Positions 22,190-58,498 of a DNA stretch of 64,000 nucleotides are shown here, piece after piece. Both the position numbers and the translations under genes were made by a program. Position 1 is the stretch's first letter, and every line of letters begins with the position of its first letter. A model generated the notes under the pieces. It worked only from the letters and a program-made list of their open reading frames with translations, was not told the DNA's origin and ran no database searches. Location: contig NZ_CM001484.1 in NCBI RefSeq assembly GCF_000243395.2, positions 850,089-914,088 on the forward strand. The letters run 5' to 3'. Origin of the DNA: Saccharomonospora glauca K62. Lineage in GTDB: Bacteria > Actinomycetota > Actinomycetes > Mycobacteriales > Pseudonocardiaceae.

Positions 22190-22300
22190 GTGTCCGCAGG
22201 TTGTGCACGCGTGTCCGCACTTGGCGTACGGGTGTTCGCATCGTGCGGCGCGAACACGCGTACCACAAGTGCGAACACCCGTACGTAGCCTGCGGACACG
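22190..22300. repeat. GTGTCCGCA repeat array 1 (head-to-head)
   Basis: Two and a half 21-bp units reading GTGT(C/T)CGCA...GTACGS run rightward and meet a centre GTGTTCGCA-N8-GCGAACAC. From there two and a half units run in reverse, ending CCTGCGGACAC. The whole forms an imperfect palindrome of about 110 bases with arms of about 50. It lies between the 3' end of the LamG gene and the 5' end of the pseudouridine synthase gene, both on the minus strand. It belongs to the same family as the arrays at 47296, 47920 and 55720. Confidence 0.9.
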
Positions 22301-45997: not shown

Positions 45998-47293
45998 GTG
46001 CCGAAACGCATTCTGATCGTCGGGGGCGGCTACGTCGGCCTCTACACCGCGCTGCGGCTGCAACGGGGACTACGGCCCGGTGAGGCCGAGGTGACGGTCG
46101 TCAACCCCGAGAACTACATGGTGTACCGGCCGCTGCTGCCCGAGGTGGCCTCCGGAACCCTCGAACCGAGACACGCGGTGGTGCCGCTGCGGGCGGTGCT
46201 GAGGAAGGCGCGGTTCGTCTCCGGTGCGTTGACCGGCCTGGATACTGTCCGCGCGACCGCCACGGTACGGCCCATGGCGGGGCCGGAGCTGGAGCTGGAC
46301 TACGACGAACTCGTCCTGGCAGTGGGTGCGACGTCCAAGCTCCTGCCCGTGCCGGGGCTGGCCGAACACGGTATCGGGTTCAACTCCCTCGCCGAGGCGG
46401 CACACCTGCGCGACCACGTGCTGAGGCAACTGGAGATCGCCTCGGCGACCCCCGACCCGAAGCTCCGGCGCTCCGCGTTGACCTTCGTCTTCGTCGGCGG
46501 TGGCTACACGGGGGTGGAGGCCATCGCCGAGCTTCAGGACATGGCCGTCGACGTCCTGGAGGGGTACCCGGAGATCGACCGGTCGGAAATGCGGTGGGTG
46601 CTCGTCGAGGCGATGGACCGCATCCTCGGCACGGTCAGCGCCGACCTCGCGGAACTCGCCACGACAGAACTCACCGCCCGAGGCATCGACATCCGCACCG
46701 GAACGCTGCTGGAGTCGGCCGAGAACCGCGTGATGCAGTTGTCCGACGGGACGAAACTGCCGGCCGACACGCTCGTGTGGGTCGCCGGGACACGACCCCA
46801 GCCGATCCTCGGCGAGTTGGGGCTGCCGGTCGACGAGCGCGGCAGGCTCGTCGTCGACGACACCATGCGGGTCGACGGCCACGCCAACATCTGGTCGGCT
46901 GGCGACTGCGCGGCGGTACCCGACCCGGAGAAGGGCGGGACCTGTCCGCCCACCGCGCAACACGCGGTGCGGCAGGCGCAGCAGCTCGGCGAGAACCTGC
47001 TGTTGACGTTGCGCGGGCGCGCCGGGAAGCCGTTCCGGTACAACAGCCGGGGCGAGTTCGTCACGCTCGGCAAGAACAAGGCCGTGGGCGAGGTGCTCGG
47101 CCACAAGGTGGACGGCGTCCTGGCGTGGACTCTGCGCAGGGCCTACTACGCCACCCAGATCCCGACGTGGAACCGCACGGTGCGGGTGCTCGGCGACTGG
47201 GCCGTGGGCATGCCCTTCGGCCACGACGTCGTCAACTTCGGCTCCCGCGAGGAACCGCGTGGCGCCTTCCGCCAAGCCGCCGAGACCAAGTAA
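45998..47293 (+). CDS. Type II NADH dehydrogenase-like flavoprotein
   Basis: This 431-residue pyridine nucleotide-disulfide oxidoreductase-fold protein has the FAD motif GGGYVGLYTA at the N-terminus, the NADH-binding GGGYTGVEA near 165, and the flavin-closing ANIWSAGDCAAVPD. The family passes electrons from NADH to quinones at the membrane without pumping protons. The C-terminal amphipathic part WTLRRAYYATQIPTWNR fits membrane attachment. The GTG start has GGGAGG 5 bases upstream. The stop codon is followed 3 bases later by repeat array 2. Confidence 0.9.
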   Translation: MPKRILIVGGGYVGLYTALRLQRGLRPGEAEVTVVNPENYMVYRPLLPEVASGTLEPRHAVVPLRAVLRKARFVSGALTGLDTVRATATVRPMAGPELELDYDELVLAVGATSKLLPVPGLAEHGIGFNSLAEAAHLRDHVLRQLEIASATPDPKLRRSALTFVFVGGGYTGVEAIAELQDMAVDVLEGYPEIDRSEMRWVLVEAMDRILGTVSADLAELATTELTARGIDIRTGTLLESAENRVMQLSDGTKLPADTLVWVAGTRPQPILGELGLPVDERGRLVVDDTMRVDGHANIWSAGDCAAVPDPEKGGTCPPTAQHAVRQAQQLGENLLLTLRGRAGKPFRYNSRGEFVTLGKNKAVGEVLGHKVDGVLAWTLRRAYYATQIPTWNRTVRVLGDWAVGMPFGHDVVNFGSREEPRGAFRQAAETK

Positions 47294-47295
47294 CC

Positions 47296-47380
47296 GTGTC
47301 CGCAGCCTGTGTACGCGTGTCCGCAGGTTGTGCACGCGTGGTCGCAGCTCGTGTACGCGTGGTCGTGTCGGACTCCGCGA
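47296..47380. repeat. GTGTCCGCA repeat array 2
   Basis: Three tandem 21-bp units (47296, 47317, 47338) read GTGTCCGCAGCCTGTGTACGC-like; the third begins GTGGTCGCAG. A fourth degenerate unit runs to a CGCGAAC near 47380 that may be the remnant of a reversed arm. The array begins 3 bases after the stop of the NADH dehydrogenase gene and precedes the DUF664 pseudogene. Confidence 0.88.
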
Positions 47381-47919: not shown

Positions 47920-48008
47920 GTGTCCGCAGCCTGTGTACGTGTGTTCGCGTCGCACGCTGCGAACACGCGTACGCAACCTGCGGACACGCGTGCACAACCT
48001 GCGGACAC
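47920..48008. repeat. GTGTCCGCA repeat array 3 (head-to-head)
   Basis: One full unit (47920-47940) and a half unit GTGTTCGC meet a centre of 10 bases and GCGAACAC. Two reversed units follow (47967-47987, 47988-48008), each ending CCTGCGGACAC. It lies between the DUF664 pseudogene and the 3' end of the greA-like gene, a convergent junction. Confidence 0.9.
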
Positions 48009-52611: not shown

Positions 52612-53460
52612 TCAGCCGCCCAACTTCTCCTCGATCCACCTGACACCGAAGTCCACGACGTCGGCCGCCTCGAACAGGTGGCTGCGCGCGGCTCCCACGA
52701 GACCGCTACGGCCGAACCCGGCCTTCACCAACTCCGCGCCGATCACGCCGAACGGGTCCTCGCCCGCCGGCACGACGGAGGAGTAGTCGAAGGCCCCGTT
52801 CTCCGAGTCGATGTCGGAGAACCGTCGCCACACCCGCTGTCCGTCCACCTCGATGGGCATCTCGTAGGAGACGAAGATCTTGTTCGGGGCGTCGGCGATG
52901 GCCTCCGCGTGGTGCAGCAGCGTCAGGGTCTCCAGCGGCGCGCCGAGCAGCAGCACCCGACCTCCGGCCGCCACCAGCCGGGCGAGCGGACTGCCCGGAC
53001 CGTGCGGGTCGTCCCACGGGTGCTCGGCCGTCAGCTCCTCCGCACGCGCCCCCAATGCCGCAAAGCTCACGTCCGGATGCCTGCTGCGCACTGCGCCGGG
53101 CCGGCGACGCAGCACCTCCGGGAGGCGACCGTTGTCGTGATCGGACTCGCTGAGGTCGGGGTCGAAGGCGGGGTGTTCCGCCCGGACGCGCTCCCGCCAC
53201 GGTCGGGGCCAGGTGAGGAAGTCGTACGGCGGCGCGTCGTTCCAGCCGCAGGGGACCAGCAGGGTCCCTCGGGAACCGACCACGTCCAGCAGCGCGTTGA
53301 TGAGCGTGGTGGGTCCACCCGCGACGTAGCCGACGGCCGACAGGCGTGTGTGGAACATGACGGTGTCACCCTCCCGCAGCCCGAGGTCCGCGAGGTCGGC
53401 GGCGAGTCCGCTGCGCGTCACGGGACCACCGGAGCGGTGGAGCAGGGCGGATACGTCCAT
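52612..53460 (-). CDS. AAC(3)-family aminoglycoside N-acetyltransferase-like protein
   Basis: This 282-residue antibiotic_NAT-fold protein has the AAC(3) signatures HTRLSAVGYVAGGP, the SRHPDVSFAALG block with the catalytic His, and LLGAPLETLTLLHHAEAIA. It would acetylate the 3-amino group of aminoglycosides with acetyl-CoA, or a related amine; chromosomal copies in actinobacteria often have other substrates. The ATG at 53460 is the family start. It converges on ilvD and has no mobile-element neighbours, so resistance cannot be assumed. Confidence 0.88.
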   Translation of the reverse strand: MDVSALLHRSGGPVTRSGLAADLADLGLREGDTVMFHTRLSAVGYVAGGPTTLINALLDVVGSRGTLLVPCGWNDAPPYDFLTWPRPWRERVRAEHPAFDPDLSESDHDNGRLPEVLRRRPGAVRSRHPDVSFAALGARAEELTAEHPWDDPHGPGSPLARLVAAGGRVLLLGAPLETLTLLHHAEAIADAPNKIFVSYEMPIEVDGQRVWRRFSDIDSENGAFDYSSVVPAGEDPFGVIGAELVKAGFGRSGLVGAARSHLFEAADVVDFGVRWIEEKLGG

Positions 53461-54363: not shown

Positions 54364-55734
54364 ATGGTCGTGGGAATCCCCAGAATCGTCGTCGCGGCAC
54401 CGGGCACGGGGCACGGCAAGACGAGCGTGGCCACCGGATTGATGGCGGCGTTGCGTGCCCGAGGGACGGCGGTGTCCGGACACAAGGTCGGCCCCGACTT
54501 CATCGACCCCGGCTATCACGCGCTGGCCACGGGCCTGCCGCCACGCAATCTCGACCCCGTCCTGCAGGGGCCGGAGCGGGTCGCGCCGTTGCTGGCGCAC
54601 GGAGCCCGTTCGGCCGAGTTGGCCGTGATCGAGGGCGTCATGGGGATGTTCGACGGTGCGCTCGGTACCGGGGGTCGCGCGTCCACGGCACACGTCGCGA
54701 CACTGGTGTCGGCGCCCGTGGTCCTCGTGGTGGACGCGTGGACGGCCAGCCGCAGCATCGCCGCGACGGTGCTCGGGTTCGCCCGGTACGACCCCGACGT
54801 CCGGCTCGCCGGTGTGATCCTCAACCGCGTCAACGCGCGAGCGCACGAGGACGAGATCCGCGAGGCGCTGGAGCCCACGGGCATCCCGGTGCTGGGTGTC
54901 CTGCCGTACGACGAGTCGCTGCGGGCACCGGACCGGCACCTCGGGTTGGTGCCTGCGGGGGAACGGGGCGCCGGTGCCCGAGCCCTCGTGTCCGCGTTGG
55001 CCGCGTGGGTGGAGTCCGGAGTGGACCTCGATGCCGTCGTGCGGGTGGCGCGGTCGGCGCCGTCGTTGTCGACCGTGGCGTGGGAACCGGCCGAAGACAT
55101 GCCCGCCTCCCGGCGGCGCCGCGTGGTGGCGGCTGCCTCGGGGGCGGCGTTCACGTTCCGCTACACCGAGACGGTGGAGTTGCTCGACGCTGCGGGCATC
55201 GACGTGGTCGACCTCGACCCGTTGCGCGATGAGAAGCTGCCCGAAGGCTGCGCGGGCCTGTACTTCGGGGGCGGGTTCCCCGAGGTGCACGCTCGGGAGC
55301 TGGCGGACAACGCCGGGCTGCGGGCGAGCGTCGCCGACGCCGTGAGGGGTGGCATGCCGGTGGTGGCCGAGTGCGCGGGCCTGCTGTATTTGTGTCGCGA
55401 GCTCGACGGGGCTCCGATGGTCGGCGCGCTCGACGCGGTGGGACGGACCACCGGCGGGGGCGGCCTCGGCTACCGGGACGCTACCTCGCCCGGTGATTCG
55501 CTGCTGGCGGAGCGGGGACAGCGGGTGAGCGGACACGAGTTTCACCGCACGGTGGTCGAGCCGCGTCACGGGGATACTCCGGCGTGGGAGTGGGACGGCC
55601 GGGCGGAGGGCTTCGCGTCACCGAGCCTGCATGCCTCCTATCTGCACCTCCATTGGGCGGGCCACCCGGAGGTGGCGCGTCGCTTCGCGACGGCCGTGCA
55701 CAACTGGCCCGCAAACGCCGTGTCCGCAGGTTAG
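54364..55734 (+). CDS. cobB: Cobyrinate a,c-diamide synthase
   Basis: This 456-residue amidotransferase of the cobalamin pathway amidates the a and c side chains of cobyrinate using ATP and glutamine. The N-terminal P-loop reads PGTGHGKTS and is followed by KVGPDFIDPGYH; the C-terminal glutaminase has the nucleophile Cys in VAECAGLLYL and a late His in LHASYLHLHW. GGGAGGTG lies before the ATG. The last four codons and the TAG stop are formed by the first unit of repeat array 4, so the native C-terminus has been altered. The cobS-cobT-cobU genes run toward it from the other side. Confidence 0.95.
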   Translation: MVVGIPRIVVAAPGTGHGKTSVATGLMAALRARGTAVSGHKVGPDFIDPGYHALATGLPPRNLDPVLQGPERVAPLLAHGARSAELAVIEGVMGMFDGALGTGGRASTAHVATLVSAPVVLVVDAWTASRSIAATVLGFARYDPDVRLAGVILNRVNARAHEDEIREALEPTGIPVLGVLPYDESLRAPDRHLGLVPAGERGAGARALVSALAAWVESGVDLDAVVRVARSAPSLSTVAWEPAEDMPASRRRRVVAAASGAAFTFRYTETVELLDAAGIDVVDLDPLRDEKLPEGCAGLYFGGGFPEVHARELADNAGLRASVADAVRGGMPVVAECAGLLYLCRELDGAPMVGALDAVGRTTGGGGLGYRDATSPGDSLLAERGQRVSGHEFHRTVVEPRHGDTPAWEWDGRAEGFASPSLHASYLHLHWAGHPEVARRFATAVHNWPANAVSAG

Positions 55735-56040
55735 GGACGAGTGTCCGCAGTCTGTGTGCTTGTGTCCGCAGGTTGTGTGCGGGTGTTTGCAGCCTGTGTA
55801 CCTGTGTCCGCGGGTTGGGGACGGGTGTTCGCACTTCTCGTACGGAGGTTTGGAGGTCTAGGGAGCGTGTCCGCGCCGGAGGTCGCGGACACGCGTGCGG
55901 GAAGTGCGGACACGCGTGCGGGAAGTGCGGACACGCGTGCGGGAAGTGCGGACACGCGTGCGGGAAGTGCGGACACGCGTGCGGGAAGTGCGGACACGCG
56001 TGCGGGAAGTGCGGACACGCGTGCGGGAAGTGCGGGAGGT
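55720..56040. repeat. GTGTCCGCA repeat array 4 (long head-to-head)
   Basis: About seven 21-bp units run rightward (55720, 55741, 55762, 55783, 55804, 55825; the seventh at 55846 is decayed), all different in the last 11 bases. They meet a palindromic centre GTGTCCGCG-N8-CGCGGACAC (55867-55892). Six identical reversed units GCGTGCGGGAAGTGCGGACAC-like (55893 to 56018) and a partial seventh follow. The left arm begins inside cobB and supplies its stop codon; the right arm ends 6 bases from the cobS stop. The identity of the right arm suggests recent slippage expansion. Confidence 0.93.
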
Positions 56041-56045
56041 GGGGG

Positions 56046-56819
56046 TTAGGCGGCGGAGAGGGTCGCCAGGACCACCACCGTGGTGAGTTCGACGCAGGCG
56101 CCGAGGACGTCTCCCGTGATTCCTCCGAACCGGCGGATGGCGCGCGCGAGCAACGCCCCCGCGCAGGCCCAGCCGAGGAGAAGCGCCACGGGGCCGTGCC
56201 ACCACGCGAAGCCCGGCACCGCGGCGGCGGCGAGGAGACCTGTCGCGACCAGAGTCGCAGCCGCCCGCGGCGGTACGGTGCCCGCGACCGCCGCGCCGAG
56301 CCCCTCGGGGCGGGCCGAGGGCACCGCCCGCACACAGCACAGCGGCAGCACCGCGCGGCCCGCGAGCACCGCCGTGGCCACGGCGGCCACCCCCGTCCCC
56401 GACGCCACGGCGGCCGCGAGAGCCGCCACCTGCCCGAGTAGGACGAGCACCAGGGTGACGACCCCACTCGGGCCCACGTCGCCGCGCCGCATCACCTCCA
56501 GCGCCCGCTTCCGGTCGTAGGAGGCGGCGAGACCGTCGGCGACGTCGCCCAGCCCGTCGAGGTGCAGACCACGGCTGCCGAGCGCCACCGCGCCGATCGC
56601 GGCGACGGCCGTCACCGACGTGGGCAACCCGAAGCCCGTTCCGGCGAGGACGACCAGCGCCGCCACCACCGCCAGCGGAAGCGAGGCGAGTGGAGCGAGC
56701 ACCATCGCCGTCCCCGCCACCCGGCGGTCCACCACCGACGGCGCGGGGACGGGCAACACCGTCAACGTGCCCACCGACATCAACATGCCGTCCCGCAGGA
56801 CGGAGCGCCGCCGACTCAC
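56046..56819 (-). CDS. cobS: Adenosylcobinamide-GDP ribazoletransferase
   Basis: This 257-residue integral membrane enzyme joins adenosylcobinamide-GDP and alpha-ribazole, the last step of cobalamin assembly. It has the family block [35 protein letters not shown] (cited by its ends LHLDGLGD and KRALEVM) with the Mg-binding acids, and about six hydrophobic segments. The GTG start overlaps the cobT stop as GTGA. The order cobU-cobT-cobS is one operon. Its stop lies 6 bases from repeat array 4. Confidence 0.93.
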
Positions 56820-57875
56820 GAGAGTTCGGCGAGGGTGCTCATGTCGGCGATCACCGTCCTGGCCGCACGGAGCACGGGCACGGCTTGGATCGCGCCGCTG
56901 CCCTCGCCCAGGCGCAGCCCCAGATCGAGGATCGGTTTCAGGCCGAGCGAGGCGAGCGCGAGCCGCTGCGCCGGTTCGGTCGAGGCATGCCCGGCCAGCC
57001 ACCACCGCGGGGCGTCCGGGGCGAGGTCGCGGGCCACGAGCGCCGCGGCACACGAGAAGACCCCGTCGAGCTCCACCGGCGTCGATCCGCACGGCCGCCT
57101 GCACCAGGAACCCGGCGGTCGCCGCGGCGCAGGCGCTGCCGAGCGCGGTGAGCCGATCGAACGGGGCACCGACCCGGCTCCCGGCGCGGCGCAAGGCCCG
57201 GTCGACCGTCGTCACCTTGTGGGCACGTCCCGACTCGTCGATCCCGGTCCCGGTGCCCACGACCTCGTGCGCGGGTAGGCCGAGCGACGCCCCGACCAGG
57301 GCGGCGGCCACCGTGCTGTTCCCGATGCCCATGTCTCCGGGGACGAGCACGTCCGCGCCGGCGTCGATCTCCTCGTCGGCCACGGTACGGCCCACCGAGA
57401 AGGCCTTCTCGGCCTCGCCCGGCGACAGCGCGTCCTCCACGTCGATCGAACCGGAACCACGCCTCACCTTGTGGGCGACGACTTCTTCGGGCACGTCGTC
57501 GAGATCGGCGTCCACGGCGATGTCCAGCGCGCGGACCCGCGCGCCGACCTCCCGCGCGAGCACGGTGACGCCGCTAGTGCCCGCGCAGAAGACGCGCACC
57601 ATCGCCGCCGTGATCTCCCTGGGATACGCCGACACGCCCGGCGCCGTCCTCGACACGCCGTGGTCACCCGCGAACACCACGACGCGCACGTCGTCCAGCG
57701 GACGTGGCGGGACCGTGCCGTGGGCGCCGCACAGCCACGCGGCGAGCTCCTCAAGCCTGCCGAGCGAGCCGACAGGTTTGACCAGCTCGTCGAGCCGCCG
57801 CCGGGCCCGGCGTTCCGCCGTCGCGTCGGGCAGCGGAACGGGAACGGGGAACGTCGCTTTCGCAACCGCCTTCAC
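56816..57875 (-). pseudogene. cobT: Nicotinate-nucleotide-dimethylbenzimidazole phosphoribosyltransferase, frameshifted
   Basis: Both halves of CobT are present but in different frames. From GTG 57875 the frame reads normally through VVFAGDHGVS, GDMGIGNST and [21 protein letters not shown]. At about 57086 the family sequence jumps one frame to [17 protein letters not shown]...[13 protein letters not shown]...LRLGEGSGA and ends at 56816. Removing one base near 57086 restores a full protein of about 352 residues that activates dimethylbenzimidazole. The start overlaps cobU and the end overlaps cobS, so the operon geometry is intact. A sequencing error, a recent mutation or a recoding event are all possible. 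Confidence 0.85.
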
Positions 57876-58498
57876 AGGCGCACCACCCGCCCGGCGACGA
57901 TGAGCCGCACCGAGTCGGAGCCCGCCGCGACGGCGGTGTTGAGGGCACCCAGGACGTCTCGGAACACGCGGCCCGCGTGGGTGGCCGGGACGACGCCCGA
58001 GCCCACCTCGTTGCTGACTGCCACGGCGGGGACCTTGGTGGAGTGCCAGGCGTCGACGAAGTCCTGCAACCGCTCGTCCACCGCGCGCTGCCAGCCGTTG
58101 CGCTGTTCCCACGCGCCCACCTCGTCGAGCACCCTGGTCAGCCAGGTGCCGAGGCAGTCCACGAGCACGGGCGCGGTCGTGGTCCGGAGCACGTGGGCGA
58201 TGTCCATGGTCTCGACGGTGCGCCAGTGAGCGGGTCGTCTGGCGCGGTGAGCCGCCACCCTCGCCGCCCACTCGGGGTCGTCGCCGGTGGGAGGCGCGCT
58301 TCCCGCCACGTAGACCACGTACCGGTATCGTGACATGAGCTGCTCGGCGTGGCGGGACTTGCCGGATCGGACCCCACCCAGAACGAGCGTGCGCGGCCCG
58401 CCACGGGCACGGCGGCCGTACCTGCGTAGGAGCAGGGCGCCTGCCTCCAGCCGTTCGGCCACGAACTCGGTGACCCGCCGCCTCGGATCAATCATCAT
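57872..58498 (-). CDS. cobU: Adenosylcobinamide kinase/guanylyltransferase
   Basis: This 208-residue bifunctional enzyme of the cobinamide salvage/assembly pathway has the P-loop GGVRSGKSRHAE, the segment ETMDIAHVL, VDCLGTWLT and SNEVGSGVVP, all CobU hallmarks. It phosphorylates adenosylcobinamide and adds GMP. About 35 extra N-terminal residues precede the P-loop, so an internal start is possible, but none has a good ribosome site. It is the first gene of cobU-cobT-cobS; the stop overlaps the cobT start as GTGA. Confidence 0.92.
   Translation of the reverse strand: MMIDPRRRVTEFVAERLEAGALLLRRYGRRARGGPRTLVLGGVRSGKSRHAEQLMSRYRYVVYVAGSAPPTGDDPEWAARVAAHRARRPAHWRTVETMDIAHVLRTTTAPVLVDCLGTWLTRVLDEVGAWEQRNGWQRAVDERLQDFVDAWHSTKVPAVAVSNEVGSGVVPATHAGRVFRDVLGALNTAVAAGSDSVRLIVAGRVVRL

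Follow-up and report, generated by a model that had tools for sequence, protein, structure and literature searches.

The closest described parallels to the arrays considered here are three families of intergenic repeats and one DNA-binding protein. REP/BIME sequences are abundant, opposed intergenic repeats that are species-specific and have been proposed as protein sites and to have a role in transcription termination (PMC2817692). The STAR elements of staphylococci are intergenic direct repeats with spacers that are locus-specific, expand and contract, and occupy different loci in different species (PMC3532100). The BrickBuilt MITE of Porphyromonas gingivalis contains a 23-nt tandem unit in a dispersed intergenic element with inverted ends, lies 49-591 nt from genes and has promoter activity (PMC4596501). 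The developmental regulator BldC is a single protein that assembles head to tail into an oligomer on direct repeats, the number of which varies (PMC5859096). The 21-bp arrays described below share with REP/BIME their abundance, intergenic location, opposed orientation, species specificity and proposed roles as protein sites and in termination (PMC2817692); however, their unit is no palindrome, their arms run head to tail at a fixed 21 bp, they are anchored at stop codons, and Saccharomonospora glauca has no Y1_Tnp. Like STAR elements they are intergenic direct repeats with spacers that expand and contract (PMC3532100), but many S. glauca array positions are shared with S. piscinae and with the actinomycete MAG DX1.bin91, and opposed phase-locked arms are not mentioned in the available part of the STAR description (PMC3532100). 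They differ from BrickBuilt in lying mostly 2-28 bp from stops and in having opposed arms and a conserved core with a variable spacer. BldC may by analogy offer a working model for binding to such an array, with the difference that the 21-bp sites lie at gene 3' ends.

The array that drew attention to this family lies in a 64-kb stretch of the S. glauca chromosome, referred to as the window, between cobB (54364-55734, plus strand; Pfam GATase_3 and CbiA) and the convergent cobS (56046-56819, minus strand, start approximate; PF02654). Its rightward arm (55720-55866, plus strand) consists of six units at 55720, 55741, 55762, 55783 (GTGTTTGCA), 55804 (GTGTCCGCG) and 55825 (GTGTTCGCA), together spanning 55720-55845, and a degenerate unit at 55846-55866. 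The palindromic centre GTGTCCGCG-N8-CGCGGACAC (55867-55892), with a centre unit at 55867, places the innermost pair at a fixed 17-bp register. It is followed by a leftward arm (55893-56018, minus strand, cores 55905 to 56018) of six identical 21-bp units directed away from the cobS end, in which identity reaches 56035 (TRF 55885-56035, 7.2 copies, 100% match). The layout described in an initial sequence-only reading was confirmed in the assembled sequence and by Pfam: a palindromic centre is followed by six leftward units of identical sequence, and the flanking genes cobB and cobS are convergent. The seven rightward units counted in that reading are recognisable if the centre unit is taken as the seventh, and one further decayed unit has to be added. 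The same reading had the first unit supply the last codons and stop of cobB. The TAG (55732-55734) does lie inside that unit, but this looks like a lineage accident: in the relative G009 (genomes are given by our labels, S. glauca being G000), whose CobB is 90% identical, a TGA stands shortly before the array, and the S. glauca stop apparently falls within unit 1 because its lineage lacks ~20 bp present in G009, as judged by eye from these two sequences.

Within the window there are 24 occurrences of the core GTGTYCGCA where 2.3 would be expected, a number reached by none of 100 shuffles. The window holds three further arrays of the family: a one-armed array (47296-47346, plus strand) 2 bp past the stop of a pyridine nucleotide-disulphide oxidoreductase gene (45998-47293), a two-armed array (47920-48008) between convergent genes of which the minus-strand one, of the GreA/GreB C-terminal family, ends 6 bp away, and a two-armed array (22190-22299) with a minus-strand gene end 11 bp to its right and no called co-directional gene end on its left. 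A search of window positions 55000-57000 against Rfam 15 gave three matches, each scoring well under the gathering cut-off of its family and lying off the array. Elsewhere in the window, cobT (56816-58271, minus strand) looks frame-shifted near 57100, since pieces of it lie in two frames (ORFs 56046-58271 and 56816-57169), for which a sequencing error and a real break are both possible, and 52612-53460 (minus strand) encodes an aminoglycoside 3-N-acetyltransferase family protein (PF02522, E 9e-72).

The repeat is by no means limited to the cobB-cobS locus. In the S. glauca genome GTGTYCGCA recurs at exactly 21 bp in 244 places (104 forward, 140 reverse; control 0). Among 61 genomes searched such pairs are found in 8 of 12 Saccharomonospora genomes, at 31 to 341 places each, and in none of 25 genomes of other genera of the family or 24 others of the order; S. 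piscinae, Saccharomonospora sp. NB11 and DX1.bin91 are the named matches among those listed. The Saccharomonospora counts leave out 14 of at least 120 matching loci, which belong to other organisms; the six of these inspected (Sandaracinus, Dorea, Streptomyces) appear to be unrelated minisatellites. Those of the Sandaracinus MAG (L010, L067, L096, L105) and the Dorea MAG (L011) are 21-bp minisatellites that look unrelated, carry GTGTCCGCA or its complement and often sit at contig ends. A link of the arrays to phage was looked for and gave no match. A replichore strand bias is suggested by the matches listed, which omit minus-strand pairs found elsewhere (L135), and nothing is claimed from it. 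Full-text literature searches returned no description of 21-bp gene-end arrays, in keeping with the earlier remark that no element of this layout was known.

The unit has a strict anatomy. Neighbouring units on the same strand are exactly 21 bp apart in 518 of 546 cases, and head-to-head innermost pairs fall at 17 mod 21 (17, 38, 59, 80, 101) in 50 of 65. Conservation was scored on 150 middle units lying between two exact cores, which were not picked by their own core and from which recent duplicates were excluded: positions 1-9 are conserved at 98-100%, G16 at 100% and position 19 at 99%, while agreement with the genome consensus is 29-61% at positions 11-15. C at -1 is retained by first units (97-100%), as is G16 by the last units of one-armed arrays (85-96%), a pattern that places one site at about -3 to +19, with sites two helical turns apart. 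We read the conservation and phasing as pointing to DNA recognition. The unit length of 21 bp had been thought to matter as seven codons, allowing arrays to be read through in frame. This is not supported, given the position of the arms, 123 of the 130 with a nearby stop starting after it, the S. piscinae units that hold TAG in one frame, and a constraint that falls on the 9-bp core and one distant G with the register fixed between opposite strands, which looks like DNA recognition. The fixed opposite-strand register has no obvious RNA-level reason; it could also reflect descent from one ancestral two-armed element. Tail-to-tail pairs are rare (five), each flanking a separate hairpin. In these cases (L163 7126-7231, L165 9767-9852, L164 9827-9911, L084 5561-5667, L042 4258-4342) outward-reading units surround a long hairpin built as TGCGGACACGCCGG...CCGGCGTGTCCGCA. 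Those of L163 and L165 (S. glauca and G002) have flanking genes of the same two lengths and so are probably the same place after a ThiF-rhodanese gene.

Placement was examined with a simple codon-usage gene caller, whose starts are rough and which possibly missed some genes. An unselected sample of S. glauca, made up of the window and 20 stretches of 20 kb at even spacing (464 kb), contains 16 arrays. They occupy 9 of 70 convergent junctions, 6 of 266 tandem ones and 1 of 70 divergent ones, and 0 of the 16 are intragenic. Convergent junctions are thus preferred over the others (9/70 versus 7/336, Fisher p 3e-4), and 9 of 26 convergent gaps of at least 60 bp hold an array; most gene ends are without one. 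A wider survey took in 191 arms from Saccharomonospora loci (S. glauca, S. piscinae, DX1.bin91, NB11), most of them fetched because they matched. Of these, 130 have a called co-directional stop within -25 to 60 bp, and 123 of the 130 begin 2-56 bp after it, with modes at 4 bp (29 arms) and 2 bp (12 arms), the remaining 7 beginning within the gene; at the 4-bp distance the stop codon is followed immediately by the C-R-Y-C often seen in front of the first core. The other 61 of 191 arms are without a called co-directional stop nearby, as are 7 of the 26 arms in the unselected sample. Arrays usually read outward from the gene, and one-armed arrays before a co-directional downstream neighbour point with transcription in 25 of 34 cases and against it in 9 (p=0.009). 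No solitary core lies beside a co-directional stop in the 464 kb of S. glauca, and only 1 of 42 S. glauca arrays has fewer than three units.

A preference for convergent ends, together with phasing by whole helical turns, is also what would be expected if the arrays served to bring in a topoisomerase or nucleoid protein where positive supercoils collect, a role comparable to that of BIME-2 and gyrase in E. coli. This explanation, drawn by analogy, is quite unlikely: 6 of the 16 unselected arrays end tandem genes, and a sharp 9-bp core with clade versions suits a specific protein more than a general topoisomerase.

The reading we favour, tentatively and at less than an even chance, is that the arrays are cooperative sites, placed at gene 3' ends, for a DNA-binding protein specific to the clade, which on binding would block transcription or terminate it. 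Each 21-bp unit, equal to two turns of DNA, would be one asymmetric site of about R-Y-C-GTGTYCGCA-N6-G-N-A read by this protein, which would line one face of the helix cooperatively; since at least three units are normally present, binding is probably cooperative. The bound array would then halt RNA polymerase just past the stop codon, with two opposed arms on a common centre serving both convergent genes and a single arm serving other ends. The sites are well supported, with their placement, phasing, preferred polarity, constrained core, clade versions and persistence at many loci, whereas the protein, its cooperativity and the transcription block are what we infer.

Termination could instead be a property of the RNA, if opposed arms form a long transcript hairpin that ends transcription both ways. 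Two-armed arrays do fold strongly (49 arrays, median z -7.8 and -7.5 on the two strands, 47 of 49 below -2 on either strand), and the centre retains complementary halves with C/T and G/A variants. However, folding is slight in the 85 one-armed arrays (median z -1.1 and -1.5, with 26 and 31 of 85 below -2). Mirrored spacers pair at 8.45 of 12 positions, slightly better than the 8.12 of non-mirrored opposite-arm spacers in the same array, but no better than spacers within an arm (8.52) or from other arrays (8.66); selection for the long hairpin is accordingly not supported, the small advantage being confined to the non-mirrored same-array control. A hairpin inside the unit was rejected, in that strong mutual information joins neighbouring or near columns and not columns across a stem. 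At convergent ends the best hairpin has a median of -15.1 with a one-armed array (12/68 below -20), -18.0 without an array (154/397) and -20.1 where there is a free gap of at least 60 bp (67/133), the one-armed ends being weaker than either array-less set (p=3e-5 each); with a two-armed array the median is -16.6 (21/55). Judged by a stable GC hairpin after the stop, one-armed arrays do not qualify as intrinsic terminators, while two-armed arrays do fold. It is as if arrays replaced hairpin terminators, an effect that the space occupied by the array may also explain. Altogether an RNA-level terminator appears unlikely.

Arrays persist at many loci. The 3' end of cobB has a GTGTYCGCA array in six genomes (G000, G009, G010, G002, G001 and G004), and it is kept in G009, G002 and G001, where the next gene, judged by eye, is not cobS; in G008 there is no array at the cobB end and a same-strand reading frame, also by eye, overlaps the cobB stop. 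Among S. piscinae orthologues 15 of 21 array-bearing ends also have an S. glauca array, versus 5 of 59 ends without one, and among those of DX1.bin91 9 of 10 versus 3 of 36, in comparisons whose S. glauca set includes stretches chosen for their arrays; in unselected stretches the figures are 4/7 versus 2/11 for S. piscinae (p=0.14) and 4/4 versus 1/20 for DX1.bin91. Close reading of two junctions showed that the main arm had changed strand between the species. Cores of orthologous arms are 95-96% identical, a figure that is partly by construction since units are detected by their core, and the six variable positions are 48% and 46% identical versus 39% and 40% for random pairs. The array is thus kept while its spacers become nearly randomised.

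One sub-class, which includes the cobB-cobS array, behaves differently, in that it has been copied within genomes and apparently between them. Over 295 bp the window array shares 99.3% identity with an array at 697.6 kb of S. glauca (L174), and this sister copy has 12 identical right-arm units versus 6 in the window, which agrees with the proposal that one arm is old and the other newly expanded. A second related pair of long arrays lies at 617 and 1192 kb, and centres similar to that of the window number nine in G010 and three in G004. In this long class the arm lying to the TGCGGACAC side of the centre consists mostly of identical units, which differ between arrays, and its counterpart has diverged. 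One copy in G010, at a different gene end, matches the window at 98.8% identity across 171 bp even though the CobB proteins are only 78-82% identical. Some members of the family therefore move or recombine, perhaps from one species to another. A subset of arrays is also copied to new gene ends, and the number of identical units rises and falls. As a separate observation, four same-orientation matches of one unit pair each lie ~3.5 kb apart in G009 (C1 652276, 655861, 659326 and 662868), three with identical spacers, an arrangement that resembles a tandem duplication of a gene together with its array.

Such copying, together with the limited host range, supports the main rival of the protein-bound signal, a close one: that the arrays are selfish or neutral dispersed repeats, non-autonomous and of MITE or REPIN type, spread by an enzyme that recognises the core and surviving where insertion is harmless, mainly at gene 3' ends. 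This is a real possibility, short of being probable. Of the terminal inverted repeats expected of a MITE, the inverted cores that end two-armed arrays are a candidate, but many arrays are one-armed. In 60 two-armed arrays no target-site duplication was found, end repeats of 4, 5, 6 and 8 bp occurring in 4, 1, 1 and 0, which is the level of shuffled partners (5 bp: 1 seen versus 1.1 expected), and a target-duplicating MITE was therefore ruled out. Membership of the RAYT-linked REP/BIME elements was rejected as well, given the absence of covariation across a stem, one-armed arrays that hardly fold and 0 matches to Y1_Tnp/RAYT (PF01797) in the S. glauca genome; of the eight genomes with the GTGT core three have one PF01797 match (G002, G003, G008) and five have none. 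Anchoring 2-4 bp from stops, a preferred polarity, the fixed register and the nearly randomised variable positions beside conserved cores also argue against selfish repeats. Core conservation would follow equally if the core were read by a transposition enzyme, so it cannot alone separate a host signal from a selfish repeat, and both may hold; persistence and anchoring favour a host role, and long-class copying favours mobility.

The core itself differs among clades. CGCGAGTYG recurs at 21 bp in 113-236 places in G005, G006, G007 and G011, congeners that are without GTGTYCGCA pairs, and in the eight GTGTYCGCA congeners it does so nowhere except in G003 (2) and G009 (1), genus controls being 0. 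The non-coding DNA of G006 has 21 as its strongest period, and one opposed array there lies between convergent stops; in period scans of G011 (41 kb) and G005 (19 kb) 21 is not among the top periods, although pattern counts over their whole genomes are high. A tree of CobB places G008, which is rich in the first core, with the second-core genomes G006 and G011 (support 94/93, slightly short of the mark of the tool). Outside the genus, G014 has 48 CGCGAGTYG places at 21 bp, with 21 the strongest non-coding period, and G025 has strong 21-bp arrays with the core C-GAGWTCCGC and opposed arms. At L250 of G014 (979-1049 and 1498-1637) there are 21-bp repeats with a further core, about C-GTGTCCTGCGTTC, in addition to the C-GAGTYGCAC arrays of this genome. 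Stretches of at least 20 kb from 20 of the 25 other genera of the family, mostly just 20-80 kb each, show a clear 21-bp signal in these two, a weak one in G017, G027 and G032, and no clear one in the remaining genera sampled. Seven arrays were scored in G005-G007 and G011 (4 convergent, 2 scored intragenic, 1 divergent), two in G014 and nine in G025, where 5 of 11 arms start near a co-directional stop. Aligned by eye, the dialect cores look related.

Clade-specific and nearly exclusive cores are also a feature of DNA uptake signals, those of Neisseria having clade dialects and often being paired at gene ends. These are mostly solitary, and we know of no tandem phasing among them. In the loci examined, solitary GTGTCCGCA outside arrays is in no strong excess, with 10 seen versus 5.9 expected in S. 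glauca, 17 versus 11.0 in S. piscinae and 2 versus 2.6 in DX1.bin91, and an uptake function is very improbable. An avoidance of the core elsewhere was considered separately, with only 7 solitary cores, yet Markov and permutation controls show no avoidance.

Branches differ in their version of the unit but arrange it in much the same way, and this suggests a hitherto undescribed DNA signal for marking or ending transcription. It is conceivable, and put forward here as well short of probable, that part of the Pseudonocardiaceae has a gene-end signal of its own, in which phase-locked 21-bp arrays bind a cooperative protein that halts polymerase after the stop, and in which signal and reader have changed together to give the dialects C-GTGTYCGCA, C-GAGTYGCCA, C-GAGTYGCAC and C-GAGWTCCGC. 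Even if selfish, the arrays are a repeat family anchored at stop codons with phase-locked opposed arms, and the question is directly testable in culturable actinomycetes. If the arrays do end transcription via a protein, bacteria would have a 3'-end system that is modular and specific in sequence, in contrast to termination by hairpins or Rho, and its dialects would let a DNA signal and its reader be watched changing together.
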